In this document: positions 8,427 to 58,806 of the stretch, piece by piece | Position numbering within the stretch: position 1 is the first letter of the stretch | How the letters are laid out: each line of letters opens with the position of its first letter | Virus record (IMG/VR): IMGVR_UViG_3300010334_000029 | Coordinates: 62,001 to 126,000 of that record | Strand: one strand, 5' to 3' | Length of the DNA stretch: 64,000 nucleotides | Source of the DNA: a virus | Notes under the pieces: generated by a model | Told to the model about the DNA's origin: nothing | Seen by the model: the letters and a program-made list of their open reading frames with translations, nothing else | The model's database searches: none | Made by a program: the position numbers and the translations under genes

Positions 8427-9002
8427 TTAGTGATGGCCCAGCGCGACCTTGGTGTGCCATTCACCACCAATCTTTCGTTGATAGAAATGTTTCTTCAACT
8501 CTGGGTGGCGCTTAACTTCTGGATCATCATGTGGTGCCGGACGAATTTCATCATCTGGCAAATGTTTACGTACTTGATCATGAGTCAAAGCATGCTGTGT
8601 AAGATCACCATGAACTTTCTTATGAAAAGAAAGTGACGGACCAGAGGTTTCAACAAAAGCACGTCTAGACGACAGATCATTCTTGACGATATGCTTTAGA
8701 CCTTTCTTACCCTGACCAGTGTTATCAGTTGCAACGGCAACACGTTTTGTCTTACCATTCTTGACTTTATAAAGACCAACAGCTCTTACCTTGCCTTCAT
8801 GATCTTTGTGAAGCTTCCAGATTGGAATATTCTTAACCATATCGTGATGGTCTTTAAAGCCGGAGCCGTGAATACCACCAATCGATTTATAAGCATGTTG
8901 AACCATATTGTAGACATGTTCAGCATGTTTCTTTTTTTCTTCTTCATGTTCTGGATGAAGGATTGAAAAACCTTCAGCTAAAAAGTCTTTAAAGTTAATC
9001 AT
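8427..9002 (-). CDS. Head protein with capsid-targeting N-terminus (191 aa)
   Basis: Starts MINFKDFLAEG, very close to the T4 internal-protein capsid-targeting sequence and ending in Leu-Ala-Glu, a site of the type cut by the T4 gp21 prohead protease. The rest is His/Lys-rich (GSGFKDHHDMVKNIPIWKLH) and ends with KVALGHH, a composition shared with the packaged proteins at 47-59 kb. The ATG overlaps the TGA of the esterase gene; both are probably late (TATAAATA at 9584). Injected function unknown. Confidence 0.75.
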   Translation of the reverse strand: MINFKDFLAEGFSILHPEHEEEKKKHAEHVYNMVQHAYKSIGGIHGSGFKDHHDMVKNIPIWKLHKDHEGKVRAVGLYKVKNGKTKRVAVATDNTGQGKKGLKHIVKNDLSSRRAFVETSGPSLSFHKKVHGDLTQHALTHDQVRKHLPDDEIRPAPHDDPEVKRHPELKKHFYQRKIGGEWHTKVALGHH

Positions 9003-13871: not shown

Positions 13872-15242
13872 TTAAATTTCTGCCCTAGCACGGATATCTG
13901 CAAAGTTTTGATCACGAATAAGCTTGCCCATCGAGAATACAACTTCAAGAACATCAGGATAAGACATTGCTGCCGTATCTCGAGTAGTATTGTATTCACC
14001 ACTTTCAGTACGGATAAGCTTCAGCATACCCTTCTTAGACTTCTTACCAGGATCGGTAATTGGATCTTTGAACACGTCAACCCAGCCCTTATCCTTGATG
14101 AAAGCAGCGCTAGTCTTCATGGCAAACTTCTGGTCATCTCGGTTTACGATCTGAAGAAGAGCACCACCCTGACCAAAGACAAGATTGTCAGCACTGAAAC
14201 CAGCAGCTTCAGACCATCGCAAGATGTCTTTAATCGAATCAATCGTAATACCATCACCCTGAAGAACACCAACGTTGTTAAGAACCTTGTAGCCCTTCTC
14301 ATTAATTGTACTACCAAAGTACTGATCAAGAATTCGAAGACACTTAGTTACAACCTCAGCTGGATCACCCGAGTCAGGACGAACTACAAGCTTAGCACCC
14401 GAGTCGATAATGTCCTGCTTGAGTTCTGTACCCCAGAGACGGCAAGCTTCGTAGATATCATAGCTGTCAGAGACGGCCGAAACAATACCACCAGGCTTAC
14501 CATTCTTCTTAACCATGTTCCGGTAAGAAGCAACCTCACCTTCTCGACCCCAGCTTGTTACAGTTGAGTGCTCCATTGCAGGAACGCTAAAACCAGCCAT
14601 GTCAGCACTGTAATACCTGCGAGCAAAAAGTAAAGCTTCAACAGTATCCGTACCCATGAAGTTGACAAGATGTGCTGCGCCGCCGATCCCGGCAGACTCA
14701 AGACTACTGACCCCACGAGCACCGAAGTCATGAAGCTTAAAATTAATGTCAGCTGGAGTGCCTGTTCGTTCAAGTGCATCAAGGATCACCTTCTTAATTT
14801 CACGGCTGTTAGTAGCCACAGTTGTAGGATACCAAATTGCTCGAAGCAATGCAGTCTCAAGAAACGAAGTCAACCAGTAGCATTCTGGGTCCATGTTGAC
14901 AATCGAAGCAAGAATGTTCTTGACAGGAACAACCGTACCTTCAGGAACTGCCTTGATAGTAACAGGCAGGTAGCCGTCATGTGCATTGAGAATATGTTCC
15001 CATCCCGCACGGTTGAAAGGTTCACCATGAGCTGTGATAATAGCCTCAGCTTCATCAATCATGTCCATGGTAATTGGATCAGTCAAGTATTCCTTGATGA
15101 AAGCCTGAAGACCAAAGAAGACTGTTTCATCATACTTGCCGCCACGGCTTTCGATGTAAGAGTAGATGTACTCTGTACCTTCGGGGTATTGATTGAACTG
15201 ACTGTACTTGTACGAGTCTGCGTTTAAAATAATGTTTTTCAT
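13872..15242 (-). CDS. nadV: Nicotinamide phosphoribosyltransferase (NAMPT/NadV)
   Basis: 456 residues, full NAMPT length. It joins nicotinamide to PRPP giving NMN. Diagnostic segments: N-terminal LNADSYKYSQFNQYPEGTEY with YSYIESRGG; KLHDFGARGVSS (residues about 165-177); VPAMEHSTVTSWG with the catalytic-region His; LVVRPDSGDPAEVV; LQGDGI. It has its own early promoter. Together with the NMNAT-Nudix gene at 17281 it makes NAD+ from nicotinamide, a pair known to let phages rebuild NAD+ after NAD-depleting defences. Confidence 0.95.
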   Translation of the reverse strand: MKNIILNADSYKYSQFNQYPEGTEYIYSYIESRGGKYDETVFFGLQAFIKEYLTDPITMDMIDEAEAIITAHGEPFNRAGWEHILNAHDGYLPVTIKAVPEGTVVPVKNILASIVNMDPECYWLTSFLETALLRAIWYPTTVATNSREIKKVILDALERTGTPADINFKLHDFGARGVSSLESAGIGGAAHLVNFMGTDTVEALLFARRYYSADMAGFSVPAMEHSTVTSWGREGEVASYRNMVKKNGKPGGIVSAVSDSYDIYEACRLWGTELKQDIIDSGAKLVVRPDSGDPAEVVTKCLRILDQYFGSTINEKGYKVLNNVGVLQGDGITIDSIKDILRWSEAAGFSADNLVFGQGGALLQIVNRDDQKFAMKTSAAFIKDKGWVDVFKDPITDPGKKSKKGMLKLIRTESGEYNTTRDTAAMSYPDVLEVVFSMGKLIRDQNFADIRARAEI

Positions 15243-17280: not shown

Positions 17281-18375
17281 TTAAACTCCCAGAAAATAGT
17301 TGATGATGTGAAAGTGATCATCAAACATTTGATCTTCACGGAGGTCACTAATAGGAACCCATTTGACCTTGTCAACTTCGTCTTCGCCGTGCTCACCTTT
17401 GGGAATTTTTAGCTTGGGTAGCTTTGTTTCACTTGACAGATGAATGTGAGCAGCATGCGTAATCACACGGCCGATAGTCGAACGATGTGGATCATCAAAG
17501 ACGTTTTGAGCTACAATCGAGCCAAGCAAGACAGCTGTAGGAACCTTGATTCCAGTTTCTTCCTTTAGTTCACGGATGATGCCATTCAAGACGGTTTCAT
17601 CCATCTCAAGATGCCCGCCAGGAATTGCCCAGAGACCCTTGCCTGGTTCTGCTTTTCGCTTTACAAGTAGAATGTGTCCACTCTGTTCAACCACAGCATC
17701 AACTGTGACATGTTTAACAGGATATGGTGCCGCTTCCCAGGCCTTCTTGTACTTGCGGACATGTTCTAACTCTCGGCGAAGTTGAGCATAAGAATCAGTA
17801 TGGATAAAGTCTTCGAAGAGAAACTTAGCCACACTTCGTGGAACTAGAACGTTATCCATCAGATGTCGCTCAAATGTGCCATCAATGAAGTGCTCGCGAA
17901 TAACCGTAGCATGCATTTCACGTTCGATTGGAACATTAACCGAGGACCACTGAGGGAACAACTTCAAGTAGTAGGATGTATTATCCTTCGAGGCACCAAT
18001 CAGACCCACCTTAGCATCGCTTAGACCGACAGACCGGAAACCACCATCATTGAGAATATCAAGCGCAGCATCTTTAACGACGTCTTGAACCTGTTTAATC
18101 CAGGCAGCATCGTTATAGGTCTTATCGTAGATTGGTTTGATGATAATACGACATTGCCGCCCACCGTTACAGTCGAATGAGCCATTGATCATATCCTTCC
18201 GTTCTTCAAAGGTGAAAGGATTGCGAACAGTTCGAGCCTTGCCGGCACTGCCCACAAGCACAAGAACATTCTTGGCCTTTTCAAGAGCAGTGGCAATGAC
18301 ACGCTGATGTTCAAGATGGAAAGGTTGGAATCTTCCAATGAAAACTAGTAGATCAAATTCTTTAGTGTCAGTCAT
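17281..18375 (-). CDS. nadM: Bifunctional NMN adenylyltransferase / Nudix hydrolase
   Basis: 364 residues. The N-terminal domain (about 1-185) has FIGRFQPFHLEH (HxxH nucleotidyltransferase motif) and NPFTFEERKDMI, as in NadM-type NMNAT. The C-terminal domain (about 215-364) carries a full Nudix box, GGHLEMDETVLNGIIRELKE followed by ETGI, spaced GX5EX7REUXEEXGU. NMNAT turns NMN plus ATP into NAD+; the Nudix half typically hydrolyses ADP-ribose. With NadV it completes a nicotinamide-to-NAD+ route, and the Nudix half could recycle ADP-ribose released by NADases. Confidence 0.93.
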   Translation of the reverse strand: MTDTKEFDLLVFIGRFQPFHLEHQRVIATALEKAKNVLVLVGSAGKARTVRNPFTFEERKDMINGSFDCNGGRQCRIIIKPIYDKTYNDAAWIKQVQDVVKDAALDILNDGGFRSVGLSDAKVGLIGASKDNTSYYLKLFPQWSSVNVPIEREMHATVIREHFIDGTFERHLMDNVLVPRSVAKFLFEDFIHTDSYAQLRRELEHVRKYKKAWEAAPYPVKHVTVDAVVEQSGHILLVKRKAEPGKGLWAIPGGHLEMDETVLNGIIRELKEETGIKVPTAVLLGSIVAQNVFDDPHRSTIGRVITHAAHIHLSSETKLPKLKIPKGEHGEDEVDKVKWVPISDLREDQMFDDHFHIINYFLGV

Positions 18376-47047: not shown

Positions 47048-49234
47048 TTACCGACCGTATTTAACTATTTCGCCAGTGTCCTTTGTGCGATGTGGAATAT
47101 CGGCAGTAACTGCTTTGACAAAGTCGGCATGTGATTTATTGGCGGTCTTTTGGAAGTTTGCTTTTTCCTGTGAAGTTTTGCGAGCATCCATATGATCATT
47201 AAAGCGGTCAATGTGGTTACGATGAATTTCTTTTGATTCACCATTAGCAAAGGTTACAGGCTTATTTATTGAAGCAGCTTTGCGTAGTTGAATACCAAGA
47301 GCTGGAACATCTTCTGCTGCCTGTGTCTGACGAAGTTTCCATGCTGCAGAACCTTCCTTTGGTGGGCGACCACGTCCTTCATCTAGATCTGCAAGTGAAG
47401 CTTCGATCATATCAATTTCATCTTGTGAAAGTTCGATATCTTCCTTGATCTTACCACCAGCTTTCATATCCTTGATACTGCTTCTTGCATAATCCTTACT
47501 GTAGCCACCACGATCACGCAGATCTTTTACCGCATCTTTATATCTAGATCTTGTTGGTGATTCTGAACCAATACCTTTCTGACGAACGTGTTGATCTAGC
47601 GCATCCATGTGAGATTTAGCTTGTCTGGTGTCACCAGAAGCAATAGCTTTACCAAGAGCTGCATGTAGTTCTTCTGCTTTAGTCTTTGGTGATGAATTAT
47701 CTACAACATGCTTATCAGCCATCTTATCAAGTGCTTTAGACTTGATGCCACTCATATCACCAGCAGGTGTACTTGAAGTTTTCTTTACAGTTGAATATGC
47801 AGGTCTTGCTTCACCAGGTGCATAGTTAACATAGTTAGACTGCATGTTTGGCTTATTCTTGGTTCGATTTGCAGAAACTTCAGCCCGCTTTGGGTCACGC
47901 TTATATGACTTGATCTCAATATTGTGCTTCTTGTAAGTAGCCTTATCAGTAAGATCACCAGTGTGCTTCTCAATAGCATTCATTACTCTGTGAAGTGCTT
48001 CTTCCTTTGAGTGATGTGGGCTCTGATAATCATGATACTTAGCAGGAATATATTTTTTTGTACGACTATCATATTTACCGGTATTGTGTTGTTGTTGTGT
48101 TCTAGTAATTGATCTGTTACTAGTCTCGTCACCGACACCATACTTTGGTCTACTATCTGGGGAGGAGATATGAACTGCCGAAACTGGTTTACCATTGACA
48201 TGAACTACTGAAACATCACCAGAACTCATAGCCTTACTAAGTGTAGTACGAAGATGACTGTGATTAGGTGATCTACCATGTTCTTCAACTGGTGAATTCT
48301 CACCACCATGTACACTGTGTACAATTGTCTTGATCATGTGCTTTGGTAGACCCTTGAGTGTTCCAGCACCTTCATTGAGTTCAGTTAGATCATAGATTTC
48401 AAATGTTTCTTCAAGATCTTCATGAACAATTCTTGCCGACTTAGTATGCATATCACTTCTAAAGTGATTTAGTGCAGCAAATGCCTTATCTGGATGAACT
48501 TTATGCTTGGTAATACCACCAGTATACTTATTTACTACTTCAATATACTGATGTTTCTTTTTTGCTTCATCAAGATCTTCTACTTCTTCCTTGGTAAGTT
48601 TATCAGCAGCTTTATTGATACCTGTGTGACGCTTTACTACATCTTTAAAGTGTGTCTTCTCACGCTTAGAAGCATCGTTTGAGATAATATCTTTTACCTT
48701 TTGGCGAACATCAGAAGGAGTACCTGTAGTTGCATAATCAATAGCATGGGCTGCATTACGATCCGCACGAGCCTTTTCAACCTCAGCATGGCTCTGTGCC
48801 ATTGAGTTAGCTGCTTTCTTTACATATGAACCTAGAGTCTTCTTTGAAAGTTCATCAAGCTGCTCGAAGTTTTCTGGGAGTTCTGTAAACTGACCCTTCT
48901 TGAGTTTGTAATACATATTCTCAAACATGACTGTAACAATGCCAGTACGAAGATCACGATGGGTTACTTCAGCAAGACCACCATGAATATCTGGTGTATA
49001 TGGTGAATGAATAACTACACGATCAATACCCTCACCACGAAGACGACGAAAATCATCTGCATCAAGCTTATTATTGTGGTTCTTGTCAAGCTTCTTTTGC
49101 TTATCTGAAAGTACCTTAGCTGCTTCACCAAGTTCTTCAAGTGGTGCTTCAACTGATGAATTACCAGCCATAAGATCACGGACGTCTCTTACGAGATCCT
49201 TGCTTAAGCTAGTTAAAAAACTATTATTCTTCAT
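47048..49234 (-). CDS. Large modular head protein (728 aa)
   Basis: Start MKNNSFLTSLSKDLVRDVRD. Modules from N- to C-terminus: basic repeats 100-210; LTEE/VEDLDEAKKKH at about 220; His-rich VHSVHGGENSPVEEHGRSPN at 310-420; NLTDKATYKKHNIEIKSYKR; and a C-terminal DLDEGRGRPPKEGSAAWKLR (about 610) widespread in phage polyproteins. Linkers DLDE|A, ELNE|G and DLDE|G are L-x-E protease-like sites, so it is probably processed in the head. Late box AATAAATA 27 bases upstream. Confidence 0.75.
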   Translation of the reverse strand: MKNNSFLTSLSKDLVRDVRDLMAGNSSVEAPLEELGEAAKVLSDKQKKLDKNHNNKLDADDFRRLRGEGIDRVVIHSPYTPDIHGGLAEVTHRDLRTGIVTVMFENMYYKLKKGQFTELPENFEQLDELSKKTLGSYVKKAANSMAQSHAEVEKARADRNAAHAIDYATTGTPSDVRQKVKDIISNDASKREKTHFKDVVKRHTGINKAADKLTKEEVEDLDEAKKKHQYIEVVNKYTGGITKHKVHPDKAFAALNHFRSDMHTKSARIVHEDLEETFEIYDLTELNEGAGTLKGLPKHMIKTIVHSVHGGENSPVEEHGRSPNHSHLRTTLSKAMSSGDVSVVHVNGKPVSAVHISSPDSRPKYGVGDETSNRSITRTQQQHNTGKYDSRTKKYIPAKYHDYQSPHHSKEEALHRVMNAIEKHTGDLTDKATYKKHNIEIKSYKRDPKRAEVSANRTKNKPNMQSNYVNYAPGEARPAYSTVKKTSSTPAGDMSGIKSKALDKMADKHVVDNSSPKTKAEELHAALGKAIASGDTRQAKSHMDALDQHVRQKGIGSESPTRSRYKDAVKDLRDRGGYSKDYARSSIKDMKAGGKIKEDIELSQDEIDMIEASLADLDEGRGRPPKEGSAAWKLRQTQAAEDVPALGIQLRKAASINKPVTFANGESKEIHRNHIDRFNDHMDARKTSQEKANFQKTANKSHADFVKAVTADIPHRTKDTGEIVKYGR

Positions 49235-49278: not shown

Positions 49279-49716
49279 TTAACGTTTAAGTGTTGAGCGA
49301 AGTTTCCATTGTTGCTTTTCATATACTTCAAGCAGACCTTCTAGGAAGTTAACAAGCCCATATTGATTGAGTTCATCTGCTATAATATGACACTGAATGA
49401 GTGAAGCATGAACTTTCAGATTATCTTGTGAAATCCGATTAATCATTTCCCAAGCTTCAGGAACAATTGTCTCATCTTGAATACTTGTGAGTGCAAGAAA
49501 CCTACCAAGTGAACCGGGTGCATATGCATTAAGAGCACGAATATGTTCTGCAATATCATCTACATTTTCATCTGCAGTAGTGTATAGTTCTTCAAATAGA
49601 CTATGATATTGTGGAAAATTAGGTCCTTCAACATTCCAGTGATAGTACTGTGACTTAATACGAAATGCCGAAACATCCGCTAGTAGTCTTTTCATAGCTT
49701 CAATTAATTTATCCAT
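49279..49716 (-). CDS. dps: Dps/ferritin-like protein
   Basis: Start at 49716 (MDKLIEAMKRLLADVSAFRI). SQYYHWNVEGPNFPQYHSLF carries the His/Asp ferroxidase-type ligands of Dps, EELYTTADENVDDIAEHIRA the second. Four-helix ferritin fold. Placed directly after the 1538-residue polyprotein (8-base overlap); may protect packaged or injected DNA, or be a head component. Function here unproven. Confidence 0.85.
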   Translation of the reverse strand: MDKLIEAMKRLLADVSAFRIKSQYYHWNVEGPNFPQYHSLFEELYTTADENVDDIAEHIRALNAYAPGSLGRFLALTSIQDETIVPEAWEMINRISQDNLKVHASLIQCHIIADELNQYGLVNFLEGLLEVYEKQQWKLRSTLKR

Positions 49717-52700
49717 TATTAGGGTCTCCAATTTGTTGATCTGTATCACCATTATGGACGTTGCCACTTCTGATGATTTTACGTCCTAGTTTACGAAGTA
49801 CTGTTTTGGCTGGAATAACATTGCCATAAGCATCCATATGTGCTGGAACTACTACTGGTGCCTTTTCGGCGGATACAACATCCTCTTCAATTTGATCAAG
49901 GACTGATGGATGATATGCAAAACCACCTTGCATTTTCATACCTAAATCAGCAGCAGTATAGGTCTGACCAATACCAGCAGCAAAAGCAATATTAAATGCT
50001 TCATCTAGTTTCTGACCTGGTGTTGACTTCTTGTATGTCTTTACCAATGAGTCAGTACCGATTAGTCTTGATGTTGGTTTATCGGATTCATCAAGCTTTT
50101 CGTGATGGTTCACACCAAGAACAGCACCAAGTCTTTTCATACTATCCATATACTTAGCCTGTGATGCTTTACGCTTTTCTGGATCCCATCCTGACTTATC
50201 ACCAGTATAGTTTGCCATATTGTCAGCATATTTTACCATTTGCGCATGTTTATCACCACTTCTAATGATGCGTTCAATATTGTCTCTATAAGATAATTTC
50301 TTATCCTTCGAGAGAAGTTTGACAGCATTAATTACTTCAGGTGTAAAGCCTTTTGCTTTTAGATCCTCAGGCGTGTGTGGAGTATCCTCAAGAGTGTCAT
50401 GTAGAAGTGCTACCTTCTTAGTTGCAGGTCCGAATCTTCTTGTTCCAAATACTCTTTTACCAATATTCATTACCTTTTTAGGGTGGTATGAATACGGAAG
50501 ATCACCATACATCTGACCTTGTTCTTTATCATGCCATCTAGAAATTAACTTTTTGGTTTGGCGTTTTGTTGGATTTACAGCTTCATCTAGTAATTCTCCA
50601 AACTCAACTCCATGTTCAAGAAAGAAATCTAATTCTTCAGAACTAAAGTCAAACTCATCAATAATTTTCTTCTTGATTTGTTGCTGCTTGAACATATCAG
50701 AAGCAGGATTTTTAGGGGGCGCTGCATCATTACTTGGGGTTTGTGGAGTAAGATCTCGTTCTACATTCTGAGTCTTTTTACGTGGTGTTTCACCTCTAGA
50801 TACAGCAATAGGTCTATCGTCATCCTCATGAAGATCTTTATCGGCACCGCCATATGTTCCCTTACCATGAGCAATATAAGAGTTCACGCGAGCCATACCC
50901 CACTGCTGAGGTGTTGTCCCAGGGCGATGACCTGAATTCCAAGCAGCCACACCACGGCGATAAACTTTCTTTAGTGTACCAAGTGAAATACCTGACTTTT
51001 TAGCTTTATCAGCTAGAGCATCTTCATCAAGATTTTCTATGCTCTCACCGAACTTAGCATGGTATGCTTTTGTGTATTTTGACTGTGGGATACCTTTTTC
51101 TCTGATACGCTTATCTCCAGGCATATCTTTATAAGCATCTGGATCCCTATCGGAAAGTTTATTATTTCTTTCAATATGTGCTTTTTTTGCTTTTATTTCA
51201 GCAGGAGTGAGACCTTTGGTATAACTTTTAGGTAGTGTTGATTCTGAAAGATATGATTCAAGATCTTCCTTGAGACCACTCTTTTTGTGCATTACAATGT
51301 ATGTATATTTCTTTTTATCAAGATCTTCTAATTCTGCATCATGTGCGGCACGATCTTTGGATTTTGGAGCAGTAAGTTTACGATCTGCTTTGACCGTATT
51401 TACTTCCTTATTATCTCTATCTATGTATTCTTCATCATCAGATGGCTTCATGTGAAATGTTGTCTTGCTGATAGGATCATATCCATGAATATGAATGCCT
51501 TTATGCTTTCCAACTTTTGCCCATACACTTCTAGCACCTGGTGACTGGTCATTAGATGAGATAATCTTGTTGTGCTTTGTCACAAGGTGCTGGTAGAGAT
51601 GATGTGCACCAAGTGATTTGTCATTAGCAGTTAGAACACTAACTTCTTCAGCACCAGGAGCCGCCTGCTGCTTGGTTGTAAGGTGAATGTTGATTCGCTT
51701 GGTCTTTGGGTCTACTACATGATAGTCATGCATTTTATCTTTTGGATCATAACTATGATAAACATGATGTCCATTTTCTAGTGTGCCAATATGCTTAGTA
51801 CCTTCAATAGTAGAGATATGTTTACCTAGATCTTTACCGCCAAACTTTTCAGTCTTTTTAAATGAACTTAACAGAACCTCATCAAGTTCTACTTCTTCGT
51901 TCTGGTGCTTGAAGTATTGAACTTGCTTTTCACGTTTCTCAGCACCCTCCTTAGTAGGATAAGTACCTAGATTCTTACCAGATGATTTAGAAACTAGACG
52001 GTAACCGCTCTTGACCTTGACTATATGTTCATCTACTGATTCTATTTCCTCATTGGTCTTGTCCATAATTTTGGACTTCTTGAGCACATCAAGAATTAAA
52101 GGTGCCTTAAGCTTGTTATGCCTAGGAACTGCTAGACGGTGTGTAGACTTTGGATGTGTGAATACATCATGGTCGCCGCTTCCACCACTTGCCTTCTTCT
52201 GCCATCCTTTATTTGTAATGTGTGAGACCAGAGCACGGCGATCCATATTCGCTCCGGCCATTTCATCTAAAAAATCTGATTGTACTCCCTCAGAAAGACC
52301 AGCATGTAATTCAGCTGCTTTCTTAAAAGGAAGACCAAAGTGCTTGACATGACCATGCTTGTTCATAGCTTTCCATGAATTTTGCTTTGTCTGACCTTTT
52401 TCAAAATATGCTTTTACATATGGCGTATTCTTTGATTCTTCAAAGTCTACTGATTCCTGAGCAGCTTTTAAATCAGAATTAGATGGTGCTCCTTCCGAAC
52501 CTGGTTTACGCATACGTTCACCCGAACCAGCTTTGATTCTTTTTTGCTTAGCATGAATGTTATCCCACAGACCTCTTTTTTCTTCAAGATTTTCTTCTTT
52601 TACAACTTTATCAACTGTAAAGTGCTTGTAATAAGGATGCTTCTTCATCTGATATTCAGCATTTTCTCGATCAATAGCAGAAAGCTTAACTGTTCCATGA

Positions 52701-54325
52701 CTACGACCATTCTTGCTTACATGAGCAGTAAATTTACCTTCAGTTACTTCTACTTCTTCATTCTTACTACCGTAGTTAACATGAAGATGAGATTGCTTAT
52801 AATCTTTAGTAATAGCAGAATGAGGTGCTTTATAAATTCCATGACCAGTATCTAAATGAACATGAGTAGGTGTAACTTTTTTTACTTTACCAGTATGTGG
52901 GGAATTAGCGTGTACTTTTGTTTTGAGATAAACTTTGTCACCTACCTTAGCTGGAGCTTCATCTTCTTGAAGCTCTACTTCTTCATTTGTAGCCTTAATT
53001 TTCACATCAGGTACTGGACGTCTTTTATATTTTAGTCCAAGTTTACCTTTAGCAATACCCTGAGACTCCATTGATTTTCTAAATGATAGTGGTGTTGGAT
53101 ATTGTTTTCCACCTTCTTTAGTTTTAGCTAGGTACGATTTAAGTGTTGACTTTGAAAGTTCGTGCAAATCAGCATCTTCATTAAAGTATGTTCTACCCTG
53201 ATTGATATATGAGTTTACACGAGCAAATGCGTACTGCTGTTGTGATACTGAGCAATCCTCGTTCCAAGCTTCAAGCCCACGATTATAGACTTCACCAAGA
53301 ATCTCTAGATCAAGATTAGTAGCATCAGCCTTTTTAATAAGAGCTTTAAAAACAGGACTATCAACTTCTAGATCTTCACCGAACTTGCCATATTGGACAA
53401 TGGGAGATCCTTTAGTCTTTGTGCCACCTTTGGCGTTACCCTGAGAATCACCTTTAGTATTTGATTTAGCAATCTTGCGACCGCTAGAATTAATTGGACT
53501 ATCTGAACGCTCACCTGTGGATCCACTATTACCTGGTGCGGAATCACCAAAGTATTCTAGGAACAGGTTATTTAAAGATTCTGACACGTGATTTCCTTCC
53601 GGTGCTCCATGGTTAGCCATTTGCTGTCCATGCATATAAGATTGAAGTCGGGCATATTCAGCCTTCTTGACTTTTGGAATTAGACGCATTGCTAATTTCT
53701 TGATAGCAGGTCCTTTCTTTTCGATAACTCGGTCAATTGCCATCTTTTCAGATGGGCCCATCTTAGCATATTCAGCTTGTGAAACATTAGTAAGTCTGCT
53801 ACGAACAAGTTGTCTTGCCATTGCATATGAACGCTTCTTGATATTTGCTTCAGGCGCCACTTTTTTCTTAGCTCGTTCTCTGGCAATTTCAATTCTTGGT
53901 TCATTTCTACGCATTTCAATAGCACGCTTTTGACGTTGCTGAATGTTTAAAATATTTTCATCTAGGTTTACTTCTTCATTCTTTTGTTTTGCTTTAAATG
54001 TCTGATGTTCTTTAGACATTCGTTGAAGTGCCACTTTAGGATTAGAGTGACCCATATAAACAAAAGTACCCATTTCATGAGACCTTGGGCCATGATTACC
54101 ATTGAAATCGAACGAATAACTAGTAATATTTTTTCGACTTGATACTATTCTAGAACCAGGTTTTTTCTTATCAAGATATGAACTATATGGCTTTATTTTA
54201 CCAATAATTTGTCCATTATGATGAACTTCATAAGTTGCTTTACCTTCTGGGTGAGCAATAGTTTTTTCTAGTCCGGTCTTTTTTAATTTGTAATCACCTT
54301 CAGTAATTTCGTTTATTTTGTCCAT
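49709..54325 (-). CDS. Giant modular head polyprotein (1538 aa)
   Basis: Domains: 1-120 capsid-targeting-like start (MDKINEITE|GDYKL); 120-245 basic helical repeats; 320-400 DUF5824-like (QYAFARVNSYI); 450-520 KOW-like; 580-615 KRGLWDNIHAKQKRIKAGS; 700-752 HicA-like (GDHDVFTHPKSTHRLAVPRH); 765-810 YRLVSKSSGKNLGTY; 1030-1100; 1105-1150 second DUF5824-like; 1250-1400 MESH1/SpoT-like HD (HDTLEDT at 1309-1315, KYADNMAN). Recurring NEEV-x-(L/V)-x-E linkers at 117, 447, 522, 758 and 809 match head protease sites. Probably cut into separate packaged proteins. Confidence 0.8.
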   Translation of the reverse strand: MDKINEITEGDYKLKKTGLEKTIAHPEGKATYEVHHNGQIIGKIKPYSSYLDKKKPGSRIVSSRKNITSYSFDFNGNHGPRSHEMGTFVYMGHSNPKVALQRMSKEHQTFKAKQKNEEVNLDENILNIQQRQKRAIEMRRNEPRIEIARERAKKKVAPEANIKKRSYAMARQLVRSRLTNVSQAEYAKMGPSEKMAIDRVIEKKGPAIKKLAMRLIPKVKKAEYARLQSYMHGQQMANHGAPEGNHVSESLNNLFLEYFGDSAPGNSGSTGERSDSPINSSGRKIAKSNTKGDSQGNAKGGTKTKGSPIVQYGKFGEDLEVDSPVFKALIKKADATNLDLEILGEVYNRGLEAWNEDCSVSQQQYAFARVNSYINQGRTYFNEDADLHELSKSTLKSYLAKTKEGGKQYPTPLSFRKSMESQGIAKGKLGLKYKRRPVPDVKIKATNEEVELQEDEAPAKVGDKVYLKTKVHANSPHTGKVKKVTPTHVHLDTGHGIYKAPHSAITKDYKQSHLHVNYGSKNEEVEVTEGKFTAHVSKNGRSHGTVKLSAIDRENAEYQMKKHPYYKHFTVDKVVKEENLEEKRGLWDNIHAKQKRIKAGSGERMRKPGSEGAPSNSDLKAAQESVDFEESKNTPYVKAYFEKGQTKQNSWKAMNKHGHVKHFGLPFKKAAELHAGLSEGVQSDFLDEMAGANMDRRALVSHITNKGWQKKASGGSGDHDVFTHPKSTHRLAVPRHNKLKAPLILDVLKKSKIMDKTNEEIESVDEHIVKVKSGYRLVSKSSGKNLGTYPTKEGAEKREKQVQYFKHQNEEVELDEVLLSSFKKTEKFGGKDLGKHISTIEGTKHIGTLENGHHVYHSYDPKDKMHDYHVVDPKTKRINIHLTTKQQAAPGAEEVSVLTANDKSLGAHHLYQHLVTKHNKIISSNDQSPGARSVWAKVGKHKGIHIHGYDPISKTTFHMKPSDDEEYIDRDNKEVNTVKADRKLTAPKSKDRAAHDAELEDLDKKKYTYIVMHKKSGLKEDLESYLSESTLPKSYTKGLTPAEIKAKKAHIERNNKLSDRDPDAYKDMPGDKRIREKGIPQSKYTKAYHAKFGESIENLDEDALADKAKKSGISLGTLKKVYRRGVAAWNSGHRPGTTPQQWGMARVNSYIAHGKGTYGGADKDLHEDDDRPIAVSRGETPRKKTQNVERDLTPQTPSNDAAPPKNPASDMFKQQQIKKKIIDEFDFSSEELDFFLEHGVEFGELLDEAVNPTKRQTKKLISRWHDKEQGQMYGDLPYSYHPKKVMNIGKRVFGTRRFGPATKKVALLHDTLEDTPHTPEDLKAKGFTPEVINAVKLLSKDKKLSYRDNIERIIRSGDKHAQMVKYADNMANYTGDKSGWDPEKRKASQAKYMDSMKRLGAVLGVNHHEKLDESDKPTSRLIGTDSLVKTYKKSTPGQKLDEAFNIAFAAGIGQTYTAADLGMKMQGGFAYHPSVLDQIEEDVVSAEKAPVVVPAHMDAYGNVIPAKTVLRKLGRKIIRSGNVHNGDTDQQIGDPNNG

Positions 54326-54563: not shown

Positions 54564-54857
54564 TTAACAGTTCCAACGCTTTAGTGATGCAGCCTTACGA
54601 GTTGGACGACCTTTTTCATCTTTCATTGGACCAGGCACACCACTCATACGAGCGCAGAATGACTTACGTCTTTTTGCTGCTTTACCATTTGGGTCTAGTT
54701 TACTTGGTGGTGTTGTAACAGCTGTTTTAACACCTGCAGCTTTAGCGCCTTTTCTAGTTAACCCAGCCCCATCTTCTGTGGATCTTTTATATCCTTTTGA
54801 ATCCTCACCTCGTTCTAATAAGATACATTCTAATATAAAAGCTTTTAATGTTTTCAT
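54564..54857 (-). CDS. Capsid-targeted DUF6321-like protein (97 aa)
   Basis: MKTLKAFILECILLERGED, capsid-targeting start with cut after Ile-Leu-Glu. The rest, GAGLTRKGAKAAGVKTAVTT, KAAKRRKSFCARMSGVPGPM and KGRPTRKAASLKRWNC, matches DUF6321, small basic phage proteins. Lies between late genes; probably an internal head protein. Confidence 0.78.
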   Translation of the reverse strand: MKTLKAFILECILLERGEDSKGYKRSTEDGAGLTRKGAKAAGVKTAVTTPPSKLDPNGKAAKRRKSFCARMSGVPGPMKDEKGRPTRKAASLKRWNC

Positions 54858-54858
54858 T

Positions 54859-55767
54859 TTATGCTAGTTCCTTAATAGTAAATGCAAACCATACGTCTAG
54901 TTTGGTTGAGTTATCAACACGTCTCATACACAAAGTAAGCATATTTGGAGTTCCACCGCCATGCATTGATTTTGGGCCTTCATCACCAGATGTATTCTTA
55001 CCAATAATGATACCACTGTGTCTCATTATTGAACCATTTGGAGTAAACGTGTTTCCTTGATTAGAAGAATATTTGTCTTGATATACACGATATTGACTGT
55101 GAACACCAAACGTAGTCCAAGCAGGTATAGCTGCTCCAGTTATTGTTAGATCACCTTCATACCACTCATACACAATAGTGCTTTGATTAGCGTTGTTGTT
55201 TCCAATTTCATATTCAATAATTTTTATTAAATCCGCAACACTTGCACTATTATTTCTAAAACTAACAACAGGACGCATAGTATCGTCCATAGTCCAACCA
55301 CGATTCGTGTTTATTGCATGATTATTAAAGGCATATAAATCACCCGCTTCTTGTGTTGTAATAACAGTAACAGTACTAGTAATATTTATATTACCAGAAG
55401 TTACAACAACATTCTGTGATGCAGGGAAGTTGCCTACGTTAACAATACCAGTAACATTTGCATTTAGATTGCCTGATGTAATTACTACATTACCACTAAT
55501 AGGCATATACGAAACTGTTAGAATACCACTATTACCAACTTCAGTAATATGGCTGTGTATTGGATTTTCAGGAGTACTAGACACCTGTACAGTTGTTCCA
55601 ACATTAACATTTCCAGTGATTGTAATATTATTGGAACCAAGTGTTACTGGGAACGGATTCACATTAGTAACTGGATCACCATTTACTGTAGCAATCATCC
55701 CCAATTCATATAGTGTCTTACTGTTCTGTTCAACTTTCTTCTGTTGGTCAATTCTCCATTGTGCCAT
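54859..55767 (-). CDS. Beta-rich virion structural protein (302 aa)
   Basis: Repetitive Gly/Asn/Thr-rich beta sequence (GSNNITITGNVNVGTTVQV; GNLNANVTGIVNVGNF) then a globular C-terminal part (VIEYEIGNNNANQST...LCMRRVDNSTKLDVWFAFTI). Typical of phage fibre or head-decoration proteins. No enzyme motif. Exact role unknown. Confidence 0.68.
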   Translation of the reverse strand: MAQWRIDQQKKVEQNSKTLYELGMIATVNGDPVTNVNPFPVTLGSNNITITGNVNVGTTVQVSSTPENPIHSHITEVGNSGILTVSYMPISGNVVITSGNLNANVTGIVNVGNFPASQNVVVTSGNINITSTVTVITTQEAGDLYAFNNHAINTNRGWTMDDTMRPVVSFRNNSASVADLIKIIEYEIGNNNANQSTIVYEWYEGDLTITGAAIPAWTTFGVHSQYRVYQDKYSSNQGNTFTPNGSIMRHSGIIIGKNTSGDEGPKSMHGGGTPNMLTLCMRRVDNSTKLDVWFAFTIKELA

Positions 55768-56024
55768 TATTTCTTACCTTTACCTACTTTCAAGATATTA
55801 TTTTTTGTGTCAGCAGTATTACTATCTTTAACATCACCAGTATTATTAGTGGTAGCATGCATAGCATTCACAGCGTCGCTAACACTAGTATCAGATGCAT
55901 TAAATGCGGCATAACTAGAAATAGTGCCACCAGGTACTCCAGTGACATTACCTAGACCTCTGATTCCACCACCAGTACTATTTGTTGGTAAACTTTCCTT
56001 AATCCACTGACAGAATGTTTTCAT
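55767..56024 (-). CDS. Capsid-targeted small protein (85 aa)
   Basis: Starts MKTFCQWIKESLP, capsid-targeting-like with cut after Ile-Lys-Glu. The remainder is Ser/Gly/Thr-rich (GGGIRGLGNVTGVPGGTISS) with no clear fold. Its start overlaps the end of the 608-residue protein by four bases. Confidence 0.72.
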   Translation of the reverse strand: MKTFCQWIKESLPTNSTGGGIRGLGNVTGVPGGTISSYAAFNASDTSVSDAVNAMHATTNNTGDVKDSNTADTKNNILKVGKGKK

Positions 56025-57847
56025 CTTTTTACCTTGATCTTGCCTGCCATTAAACCTACACGTGTTCGATCCATAAGACCTTTAACTTCCTTATCGGAGA
56101 AGTTAGGACCGACATGTTTCTTAAATGTATTTAGGTCGCCGGATTCCGCAGCAGTTCGCATCTTTGTACCTGATAGACCATGTGAACGATTTTCATCTTT
56201 TGGTAGATGAACATGAACTTCGTCAAACTTGTGACCTTGAAGCTCTGGAATCTTGCCATTCTCTACTGAGTGCTTAAGACCTTCCGCAAACTTCTGACGG
56301 TCATGCCCAAAGTGAAGATGAAGAACCTTTCTACCAGTAGCAGGCATACTCGCATGAGCCTTGGCAATTGTAACACCTGGTGACTTTACTGTTTGGAAAT
56401 CAACCTTACCACCTGACTGCTTGTTGGCAATATCTTCACGTTCCTTATCTGAGAATGCATCAGACTTACCAGATAGACCGATAAACTTCTTGCCGTGTGG
56501 TGCTGCTTCCATTGAACCGCCAATATCAGTATGGTGTCCCATGTGTGGGAATGGTGAAGCGCCTAGATATGAGACGTGGACGTGATGTGTTTCTTCCTCG
56601 TGAACAGGAACGCAGTTAGGAACTTCCTTGCCGTTCTTTTTCTTTTTGCCGATCATTTTATAACCTGTCCAGCAGGGATCATCTTTCATAGCTTCTTTTA
56701 CATAATCACGTGCACCATCTTTATCGTATAGATCTGATCTATTTCTCATACTACGTAAAGCTTTGGCTTCAATTTGTCTAGCATGTTCTCTATTTCTTAG
56801 ACCTAAAACATTAGCAGTCTGTTCTAATGTACGACCATGAATATATCTATGCTTTATTACATCTTTCTCATTCTTATCAGTTAAGCTATTAATAAGTCGA
56901 TGTGCTGCAAGTTTGCGACCTATGGTCGTTTCATGATTCTCACCAGGATCTTGTGCTTCTCTAGCTTCATTAACCGTATCAACCACACCGAGATGCTTAC
57001 GCATATGAGCAAGAGCAGGACCATGATCCATACCCTTCATTTTAGATACGGCACCCTTAAACTTATCGTAGATTGCCTGGTGCTGTTCTTTAGGGATGTG
57101 CTTCTTGATCAGTTGAGTTACACCATGGAATGAATGGATATTATTATGATCGGCATTAGCACCAAATAGCTTCTTGGTAACTTCATGTGGGTGTTGTACA
57201 CCAGGATCAGATTCATCAGTACGTGAGCGAAGACCGTGTGTAATTGAGAACTTATGAGTATCACCGGCAACCGCATTTAGAAGGATTTTGTGGTGAGCAC
57301 CTTTAATTCCTGCCTTTGTGTCTTCCCAGTTTGATCCATGTAAGAATCTCGAAGCTTCCGAACCTGGGTGATTTACACCTTGGAAATCAAACTGATGATG
57401 TTCACCATTCTCATGACGCATAACTGCAGAGATTTCATTACCATGCTTCTTGGTTCCGACAACTGTATACTTACCAAACTTTCTGCCTGGTGTAAGATGA
57501 GTAGCTAGTTTTTCTTTATGTTCTGGTGTCACCTGAGTGTCAACGTCACCAACCATTGGTTTATGCTTTGCAAATTCAGCATGTGATACGTGGTGACCCA
57601 TGAGATCGTGAGTAGAGCCGGTATATGCAGTAGCATCATGAAGGCGCTGATGATCCTGACCGAATAGATGCTCGCCGTGTTCCTTATGAAATGTGTCACC
57701 AATTGCTGTTAAAGCATGGTGAATGTCATGGCGGACCTGATGGCGAGTACCTGCAGTTACCGGAAATGCCGCAGCAGATGTTTCCTGACCTTTTGGTCCG
57801 ACACGGATGTTGCCACCCTCTAGAATAAACGCTTTAAATCTCTGCAT
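56021..57847 (-). CDS. Capsid-targeted protein with sigma region 4-like and nucleotidyltransferase domains (608 aa)
   Basis: Residues 1-10 MQRFKAFILE|G is a capsid-targeting start. 95-180 nucleotidyltransferase-like (MVGDVDTQV). 320-370 sigma-70 region 4.2-like: KDVIKHRYIHGRTLEQTANV then LRNREHARQIEAKALRSMRN, keeping the Arg-Glu...Arg-Gln contacts used by sigma on TTGACA. 385-415 DPCWTGYKMIGKKKKNGKEV, a common phage module. 420-600 cytidylyltransferase-like with HMGH (435-438) and SGTKMR (559-564). A regulator plus enzyme that may enter the cell with the DNA. Confidence 0.82.
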   Translation of the reverse strand: MQRFKAFILEGGNIRVGPKGQETSAAAFPVTAGTRHQVRHDIHHALTAIGDTFHKEHGEHLFGQDHQRLHDATAYTGSTHDLMGHHVSHAEFAKHKPMVGDVDTQVTPEHKEKLATHLTPGRKFGKYTVVGTKKHGNEISAVMRHENGEHHQFDFQGVNHPGSEASRFLHGSNWEDTKAGIKGAHHKILLNAVAGDTHKFSITHGLRSRTDESDPGVQHPHEVTKKLFGANADHNNIHSFHGVTQLIKKHIPKEQHQAIYDKFKGAVSKMKGMDHGPALAHMRKHLGVVDTVNEAREAQDPGENHETTIGRKLAAHRLINSLTDKNEKDVIKHRYIHGRTLEQTANVLGLRNREHARQIEAKALRSMRNRSDLYDKDGARDYVKEAMKDDPCWTGYKMIGKKKKNGKEVPNCVPVHEEETHHVHVSYLGASPFPHMGHHTDIGGSMEAAPHGKKFIGLSGKSDAFSDKEREDIANKQSGGKVDFQTVKSPGVTIAKAHASMPATGRKVLHLHFGHDRQKFAEGLKHSVENGKIPELQGHKFDEVHVHLPKDENRSHGLSGTKMRTAAESGDLNTFKKHVGPNFSDKEVKGLMDRTRVGLMAGKIKVKR

Positions 57848-58806
57848 TACTTGGCTCCGAATCTTGAACTTTTGGCTTTTGCTTCCTTGAAAGCAGGATT
57901 GATGGCTTTGAAGCGAGGTGCTTCTGGATTTGCAGCAGATGGATGAACAACAAGACCTTCGGTTCCAGAACCAAATTTATTCTTAATACCAAGTGATCCG
58001 AGGTGTCTGGTTACTTTATCACTAACTTTTTTCTTGACTGCATTAAACTTGTCAAGCTCTGCGGTCTTTGCTGCTTTATTTTTTGGTGTGGTTCGTGAAT
58101 TAATAAGCTCGTGATTGAGTCCATGAAACTCTTTTACTTCATCTGCAACATCAACATGACCTGGCTTGTGAGCAATCTTATCATCTTCAAAGTTAATATT
58201 AGAATCTGATAGATGTTTCTTGAAGTGCTCCGTATCATGCCCTTGATTTTCAGGTAGTCTTGAATGAATGACAAATGTACCTAAACCTCTTGGCTTCTTG
58301 TATGAAGTATGAACAAACTTGACTTCACCCTTCTTTGTGTCAGATGGGCGAGCAAGAGCATTATTAAATGCTTCACCCTTCACTACAACTTCGTTACCTG
58401 TGCGCTTATATTCTGATGCTAAATGAGCTTGTAATGCTTTATTCTTATGAAGAGCATCATGGAATTTAGCAAATGCTTCAGGTGCGGTAGGGTCATATGG
58501 CTTACCAGTTTCTTGTGCCCGGCGCTTGGCTCGATCAATATGACCTTGAGCTGTACGAATCTTTTCGTCACCAGATCCAGAGTGCTGAGTATAAAAGCCG
58601 TGTTCGTCATGACCCATCTTAAAAGTCTGACCATCGGTCTTTTCAGTTATATGGTGGATTAAAACTTTACCACCTTTTGTGAGATGATGGAACTGGTCGG
58701 TAGAAAGTGAAGGTGTGTCATTACCAGCAGCTGTTTTGGTGGAGTAGAGATGAGGAAGGCCTTGGCGAATTGAAGCCTCAGTAATGAAAGATTTAAAGCG
58801 TTGCAT
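57847..58806 (-). CDS. Capsid-targeted ligase-like (DUF6267) protein (319 aa)
   Basis: MQRFKSFITE|A capsid-targeting start. ITEKTDGQTFKMGHDEHG contains the KxDG motif of ligase/adenylating enzymes (Lys about residue 57); the C-terminal GTEGLVVHPSAANPEAPRF with FKAINPAFKEAK matches motifs IV and V. So an ATP-dependent ligase-like or adenylating protein carried in the head; DNA or RNA repair on entry is inference. Confidence 0.8.
   Translation of the reverse strand: MQRFKSFITEASIRQGLPHLYSTKTAAGNDTPSLSTDQFHHLTKGGKVLIHHITEKTDGQTFKMGHDEHGFYTQHSGSGDEKIRTAQGHIDRAKRRAQETGKPYDPTAPEAFAKFHDALHKNKALQAHLASEYKRTGNEVVVKGEAFNNALARPSDTKKGEVKFVHTSYKKPRGLGTFVIHSRLPENQGHDTEHFKKHLSDSNINFEDDKIAHKPGHVDVADEVKEFHGLNHELINSRTTPKNKAAKTAELDKFNAVKKKVSDKVTRHLGSLGIKNKFGSGTEGLVVHPSAANPEAPRFKAINPAFKEAKAKSSRFGAK

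Follow-up and report, generated by a model that had tools for sequence, protein, structure and literature searches.

The window analysed here, i.e., the whole stretch of 64,000 nucleotides, belongs to an IMG/VR virus record of 141,838 bases in which T4-superfamily genes for head closure, DNA end protector, baseplate hub and wedge proteins, UvsX and a gp32-type SSB are found. Here, we describe a multi-module open reading frame (ORF), P0001 (49709..54325, 1538 amino acids), which we propose to be a head-cargo polyprotein; it is on the minus strand, as are all the features of P0001 and its neighbours given below. The chain is made of several distinct domains, i.e., a basic module (phrog_23027; 53606..53965, residues 121-240), an HicA-like segment below the cut-off (52070..52237, residues 697-752; 23 bits against a cut-off of 27), a DUF5824 module (50831..51187, residues 1047-1165) and a SAH/MESH1-type HD hydrolase module of 165 amino acids (50087..50581, residues 1249-1413). 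The HD module lies between two putative prohead-protease sites, LDE/A at the N-edge (50582..50590, residues 1246-1248), conserved in the orthologue of another contig (L003), and LDE/S at the C-edge (50087..50095, residues 1411-1413), which reads LEE/G in L003 (the slash marks the putative cut). At the very beginning of P0001, N-terminal I-x-E motifs (54299..54316, residues 4-9) make up a weak, capsid-targeting-like start.

Four ORFs with capsid-targeting starts are located directly upstream of P0001 on the same strand: a 97-amino acid ORF (54564..54857, MKTLKAFILE), an 85-amino acid ORF (55767..56024, MKTFCQWIKE), a 608-amino acid ORF (56021..57847, MQRFKAFILE) and a 319-amino acid ORF (57847..58806, MQRFKSFITE). 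The 608-amino acid ORF has a sigma-70 region 4 (Pfam, 6e-10) and a part resembling the phage cytidyltransferase family phrog_3041 (5e-7), and it is a possible injected sigma-like factor. On the other side, a Dps/ferritin-like ORF adjoins P0001 (49279..49767), and a 728-amino acid ORF (47048..49234) carries many acidic L-x-E linkers; the latter gave no family match and may be another cargo polyprotein. In three contigs, an HD-bearing polyprotein has a Dps/ferritin-like gene nearby, i.e., in the window (49279-49767) and, after the polyprotein, in L126 (10970-11413) and L129 (7799-8248). Elsewhere in the window, a nicotinamide phosphoribosyltransferase gene and an NMN-adenylyltransferase/Nudix-type gene form a phage NAD salvage pair (13872-15242 and 17281-18375, minus strand).

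A complete SAH/MESH1-type HD domain in P0001

The first-pass annotation of this DNA had read a SpoT/MESH1-type hydrolase from three motifs at 50126-50578. All three are located in P0001: the first HD motif QMYGDLPYSYHP, which holds the H of PYxxH (50480..50515, residues 1271-1282), the HD...ED motif ALLHDTLEDT (50381..50410, residues 1306-1315) and the K-x-x-D-x-x-x-N motif KYADNMAN (50210..50233, residues 1365-1372). The span is right as to where the module lies, whereas its natural extent is slightly larger (50087-50581). When isolated, the HD segment matches Rel, SAH and MESH1 hydrolases among PDB sequences (phmmer, best 6e-7) and the metal-dependent phosphohydrolase family phrog_990 at 2e-30; Pfam HD reaches only 0.0013, which is below the Pfam cut-off, so the standard library overlooks the module. 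Phage genes of the SAH-type HD kind are common, with relatives of the module at E<=1e-3 in 280 of 50,697 phage records. All nine aligned phage proteins (9/9) share, without variation, P-Y-x-x-H, H-D-x-x-E-D and, within K-x-x-D-x-x-x-N, the K, D and N. RelA/SpoT synthetase has no match anywhere in P0001 (Pfam, E<=1), i.e., the module stands without an attached synthetase.

An AlphaFold model of residues 1249-1413, built with an alignment of 11 sequences, has a mean pLDDT of 88.1 and a pTM of 0.86. Foldseek with this model returned the (p)ppApp hydrolase 7smg first (1e-6), followed by the Pseudomonas aeruginosa SAH and metazoan MESH1, with 6yvc and 3nqw among the best matches. VIA-align superposed the model on 6yvc with Z 19.4 (2.1 Å over 157 residues), on 7smg with Z 19.2 (1.7 Å over 138 residues) and on human MESH1 with NADPH with Z 18.6 (2.2 Å over 155 residues); altogether 12 SAH/MESH1 entries fall at Z 16.7-19.4, and the first HD protein outside the RSH group comes at 12.2. 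General HD phosphohydrolases (YfbR, OxsA, DatZ, YpgQ) rank far under SAH/MESH1 in this comparison and were rejected as an identification. A chance motif is ruled out by the PDB sequence matches (6e-7), Foldseek and VIA-align, and a frameshift or annotation artefact by the single open frame and the layout kept in the L003 orthologue. Between P0001 and L003 the module shows dN 0.027 and dS 0.36 (dN/dS 0.076), and it is this purifying selection, together with the fold and the invariant motifs, that leads us to predict a conserved, probably active hydrolase.

We regard the identification of the enzyme, a complete SAH/MESH1-type HD domain, as firm; the identity proposed in the first-pass annotation is thus borne out by sequence, fold and catalytic motifs, and the structural match on which that annotation had made its claim depend was found with the predicted model, SAH/MESH1 being best in both searches. 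The tyrosine of Q-M-Y-G in the module aligns with the arginine before PYxxH in the alignment with S. aureus Rel. In SAH/MESH1 proteins an R-K pair is presumably usual at this place (the R is taken from the alignment), where the module has Y-G; with a tyrosine in place of the Rel arginine, its base preference may differ.

Linkers, targeting starts and partner modules

In T4, the prohead protease gp21 cleaves at L/I-x-E, and a motif of this kind is also where the internal proteins lose the short capsid-targeting sequence at their N-terminus (PMC9026906). By this motif, both edges of the HD module (LDE/A, LDE/S) are putative gp21-type sites. P0001 contains recurrent acidic linkers of the form EE-V-x-L-x-E, and the pattern EE-[VIL]-x-[LIV]-x-E occurs 4 times against 0.0145 expected from shuffles. 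The plain [IL]-x-E motif is modestly enriched (20 against 11.8 expected, with 25 of 2000 shuffles equally high), and some of these sites fall within modules. The L003 orthologue is 73% identical over aligned positions and keeps the layout, with entire blocks swapped or absent, the HicA-like module being one of those absent from L003. Sixteen of the 20 [IL]-x-E motifs are kept in L003 (one of these where the alignment is poor); the remaining 4 are in blocks that L003 does not have. Polyvalent-protein domains of the LPD, MPTase or ArdC type gave no match in P0001 by Pfam at E<=1, a search that covers Pfam-modelled domains only.

The start of P0001, MDKINEITE/G, does not conform to the strict targeting pattern, which is set in the T4 register with its letters in part presumed, and fits only a loose one, which is shared by 22 of the 202 ORFs of the record including P0001; the start of the L003 orthologue is different. 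The strict pattern was found in 5 of the 202 ORFs against 0.48 expected, and shuffles reached at most 4 in 500 trials. The genes described above, at 54564, 55767, 56021 and 57847, account for four of these five. The fifth is a 191-amino acid ORF (8427-9002, minus strand, MINFKDFLAE) distant from this cluster. Searches including two with PHROG found no gp23 and no prohead protease in the record; since these two PHROG searches locate both genes in the record of another phage (L137, see below), the present record is probably incomplete.

Several parts of P0001 have relatives in other phages as proteins of their own, i.e., the modules are mobile. The C-terminal part of DUF5824 is a stand-alone protein in phage C48C1 (70% over 64 amino acids) with the targeting start MITFKKYLEE, and homologues of the basic module are stand-alone proteins with targeting starts in phages C48C1 and Melnitz. 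A polyprotein of Melnitz holds a DUF5824 part with 62% identity to P0001, and its first 40% matches S-SZBM1_140 at 38%. This cytidylyltransferase and its neighbour _139 were detected in S-SZBM1 particles by mass spectrometry (PMC9146016), and its start, MRFRQFIIEA, is targeting-like. Cytidylyltransferase/NMNAT relatives were likewise detected in virions of S-SM1 by mass spectrometry (PMC3037559), of S-CREM2 (PMC10665884) and of S-SCSM1 (PMC9602691), where the authors of the latter two warn of possibly co-purified soluble protein; please note that all of these virion data concern relatives of the partner modules only. The cyanomyovirus proteins are thus linked to P0001 through shared modules, by way of the Melnitz polyprotein, and through a targeting-like start; unlike P0001, they have no HD hydrolase module reported in the available text of these papers.

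The HD module in other phage proteins

Scanning with an HD alignment of five proteins gave 41 loci. Besides P0001, the module is found inside other large proteins, i.e., in L126 (1131 amino acids), L127 (1184 amino acids), L128/L129 (853 amino acids) and L130 (780 amino acids, incomplete), with 49-56% identity to the P0001 module (blastp). Apart from the HD part and some residues next to it, blastp detected no similarity between P0001 and the proteins of L126, L127, L128 and L130. Each of the six HD-bearing polyproteins examined has an [ILV]-x-E motif at either edge of the core, no more than 8 residues away, and the chance of having both, calculated from each protein's own motif density, is 0.014-0.050. 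These six represent four architectures (P0001/L003, L126/L127, L128 and L130), two of which have V in the first motif position at one or both edges, unlike the T4 motif. All four fall in one clade of the tree, and hence the edge motifs may have been inherited with the module and are not necessarily independent. As a control, stand-alone HD proteins had a C-edge motif in one of the six tails long enough to test (among 20 proteins), which makes a weak control. The folded HD modules of some relatives, e.g., L126, also hold [IL]-x-E, so that a cut cannot be read from the motif by itself. Among 80 loci retrieved with the DUF5824 module, only two have the HD module, L021 (the same species) and L022 (the contig of L003).

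A distant, stand-alone relative comes from L137, in which a 218-amino acid ORF with an internal start MISLKKVILE/N carries a SAH-type HD domain. It is located downstream of gp23 (Pfam 1e-71), with one ORF named GIY-YIG-like by eye in between, and precedes the head-tail adaptor and tail sheath genes; the prohead protease is upstream. This HD protein with its own targeting start amid head genes is the clearest case among the packaging signs. In the tree, L137 is apart from the P0001 clade, and well-supported branches force two changes of the cargo label, by which the HD module may have been recruited twice as cargo.

Taken as virion cargo, as the first-pass annotation had it, the HD module is supported indirectly by the edge motifs, the four neighbours with targeting starts, the module swapping and the cyanophage virion relatives, whereas the start of P0001 itself fails the strict targeting pattern. 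The different start in L003, the search for gp23 and the prohead protease that found neither in the record, the modest [IL]-x-E enrichment, the sites inside modules, the V-type edges and the single clade also speak against cargo. On this balance, we consider delivery of the P0001 module in the virion likely.

Substrate and proposed action at entry

The substrates named in the first-pass annotation, (p)ppGpp or NADP, are possible but no more likely than (p)ppApp and pyrophosphorylated tRNA, because a known phage SAH undoes a toxSAS tRNA modification. This enzyme, PaSpo of phage SSU5, removes the modification made by the toxSAS FaRel2 (PMC11559606), and it was co-expressed for the purification of CapRel (PMC9712102). 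Around stand-alone phage SAH genes, an RNA ligase, a polynucleotide kinase or a tRNA-end enzyme is near in 6 of 13 loci (L015, L017, L018, L019, L117, L118; 2.5-3 kb flanks, the loci being hand-picked from the match list and not random), which hints at a tRNA-repair role of phage SAHs generally. The activity of PaSpo, these six loci and the 21 predicted tRNA genes of the window would favour tRNA-end repair, but a bacterial SAH can also act on several of the other candidate substrates (see below). We would rank the candidate substrates in the order of tRNA or (p)ppApp pyrophosphate, then (p)ppGpp, then NADPH.

The reading to which we lean, with moderate confidence, is that in a T4-superfamily phage an intact small alarmone hydrolase has become part of a head-cargo polyprotein, from which it would be freed and injected to remove 3'-pyrophosphates. 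In this proposal, P0001 would enter the prohead core, the prohead protease would cut the L/I-x-E linkers and release the 165-amino acid enzyme, and the freed enzyme would enter the host together with the phage DNA. Its targets there would be 3'-pyrophosphates, carried either by tRNAs whose CCA ends toxSAS/CapRel-type defences have blocked or by (p)ppApp/(p)ppGpp, and their removal would let translation and metabolism continue ahead of phage gene expression. That T4-superfamily phages do so repeatedly, i.e., that they pack an alarmone/tRNA-pyrophosphate hydrolase as a protease-released module and erase toxSAS/CapRel or alarmone signals from the onset of infection, is a tentative generalization that we hold to be rather doubtful at present; if true, these phages would inject a prefabricated antidote to RelA/SpoT-type immunity.

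Other readings share part of this evidence. A head cargo that chiefly lowers (p)ppGpp and so relieves the stringent response at infection would agree with the fold, which equals that of SAH/SpoT hydrolase domains, and with an orphan bacterial SAH that hydrolyses ppGpp, pppApp and NADPH alike (PMC9765508); we nevertheless find it unlikely, as a tyrosine replaces the S. aureus Rel arginine before PYxxH and no sequence feature points to guanine. More improbable still is a MESH1-like NADPH phosphatase steering NAD(P) pools together with NMNAT-like co-cargo and the phage NAD salvage genes. The superposition on MESH1-NADPH (Z 18.6), the NMNAT-like parts that share an ORF with the HD domain in L126 and L128 (read by eye from the sequence) and the nicotinamide phosphoribosyltransferase and NMN-adenylyltransferase/Nudix-type genes of the window would suit this reading, yet other entries score above MESH1, if only by a narrow margin in Z, no NMNAT module turned up in P0001 itself, and the nucleotidyltransferase call in L126 is weak (FAD_syn 0.007).

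The question of delivery can also be answered differently. P0001 could be a cytoplasmic, unprocessed 'polyvalent' multidomain protein that is made after infection and never packaged, which would account for its weak targeting start, for a record in which gp23 and the prohead protease were not found, and for the ordinary stand-alone genes that make up most of the phage HD relatives opened; the cluster of genes with targeting starts, the bracketed module in four architectures and the virion detection of related proteins make us think this improbable, to about the same degree as the (p)ppGpp reading. Least of all do we expect a passive packaged filler without catalysis: T4 internal proteins can be dispensable (PMC9026906), but every motif residue of the module is kept and dN/dS is 0.076.

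Returning to the favored reading of an injected pyrophosphate hydrolase, its novelty is the combination of two known kinds, a phage SAH and a T4-type head cargo. With SAH/MESH1 proteins (6yvc, 7smg, 5vxa; PaSpo of SSU5) the P0001 module has the fold, the size and the H...HD...ED...D motifs in common, whereas those are single-domain proteins and the HD of P0001 is one module, flanked by L-x-E motifs, of a 1538-amino acid chain. The T4 internal proteins (IPI-III, Alt) are alike in targeting starts (here in the gene cluster), in the L/I-x-E motif and in the proposed injection, but they come as one protein per gene instead of many modules per chain, and no alarmone hydrolase is named among them in the available part of PMC9026906. 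Polyvalent proteins of phages and conjugative elements, like P0001, have many domains per chain and a proposed action at entry; in the available part of PMC5512222, RelA/SpoT synthetase domains are reported, the term 'HD domain' is absent, and the processing described relies on a metallopeptidase domain within the chain instead of a prohead protease. Phage-carried alarmone chemistry is also known from the MuF-Apk2 prophage toxins (PMC12226406), but there with a synthetase toxin and not a hydrolase. Among titles and abstract openings, with subscription literature mostly outside the scope, we found no description in print of a virion-packaged or injected alarmone hydrolase.

Proteins that a phage injects are at work before its genes are transcribed, a natural place for counter-defence, and an injected alarmone/tRNA-pyrophosphate hydrolase would tie RelA/SpoT-type immunity (toxSAS, CapRel) to a particle-borne counter-measure. 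What is described here for aquatic T4-type phages is a modular, apparently protease-cut polyprotein of putative head cargo. The same phage has a second, stand-alone SAH-type HD gene (L005:13796-14254, minus strand; G000:139796-140254), which belongs to another clade than the P0001 module and is closest to the (p)ppApp hydrolase 7smg (5e-27); with a separate SAH gene in the same genome, the HD cargo could be redundant. PADLOC matched neither P0001 nor this gene. The predicted tRNA genes of the window (21, between 298 and 13382) are joined by 6 more in L006, and the odd calls (SeC, Pyl) are probably naming artefacts.
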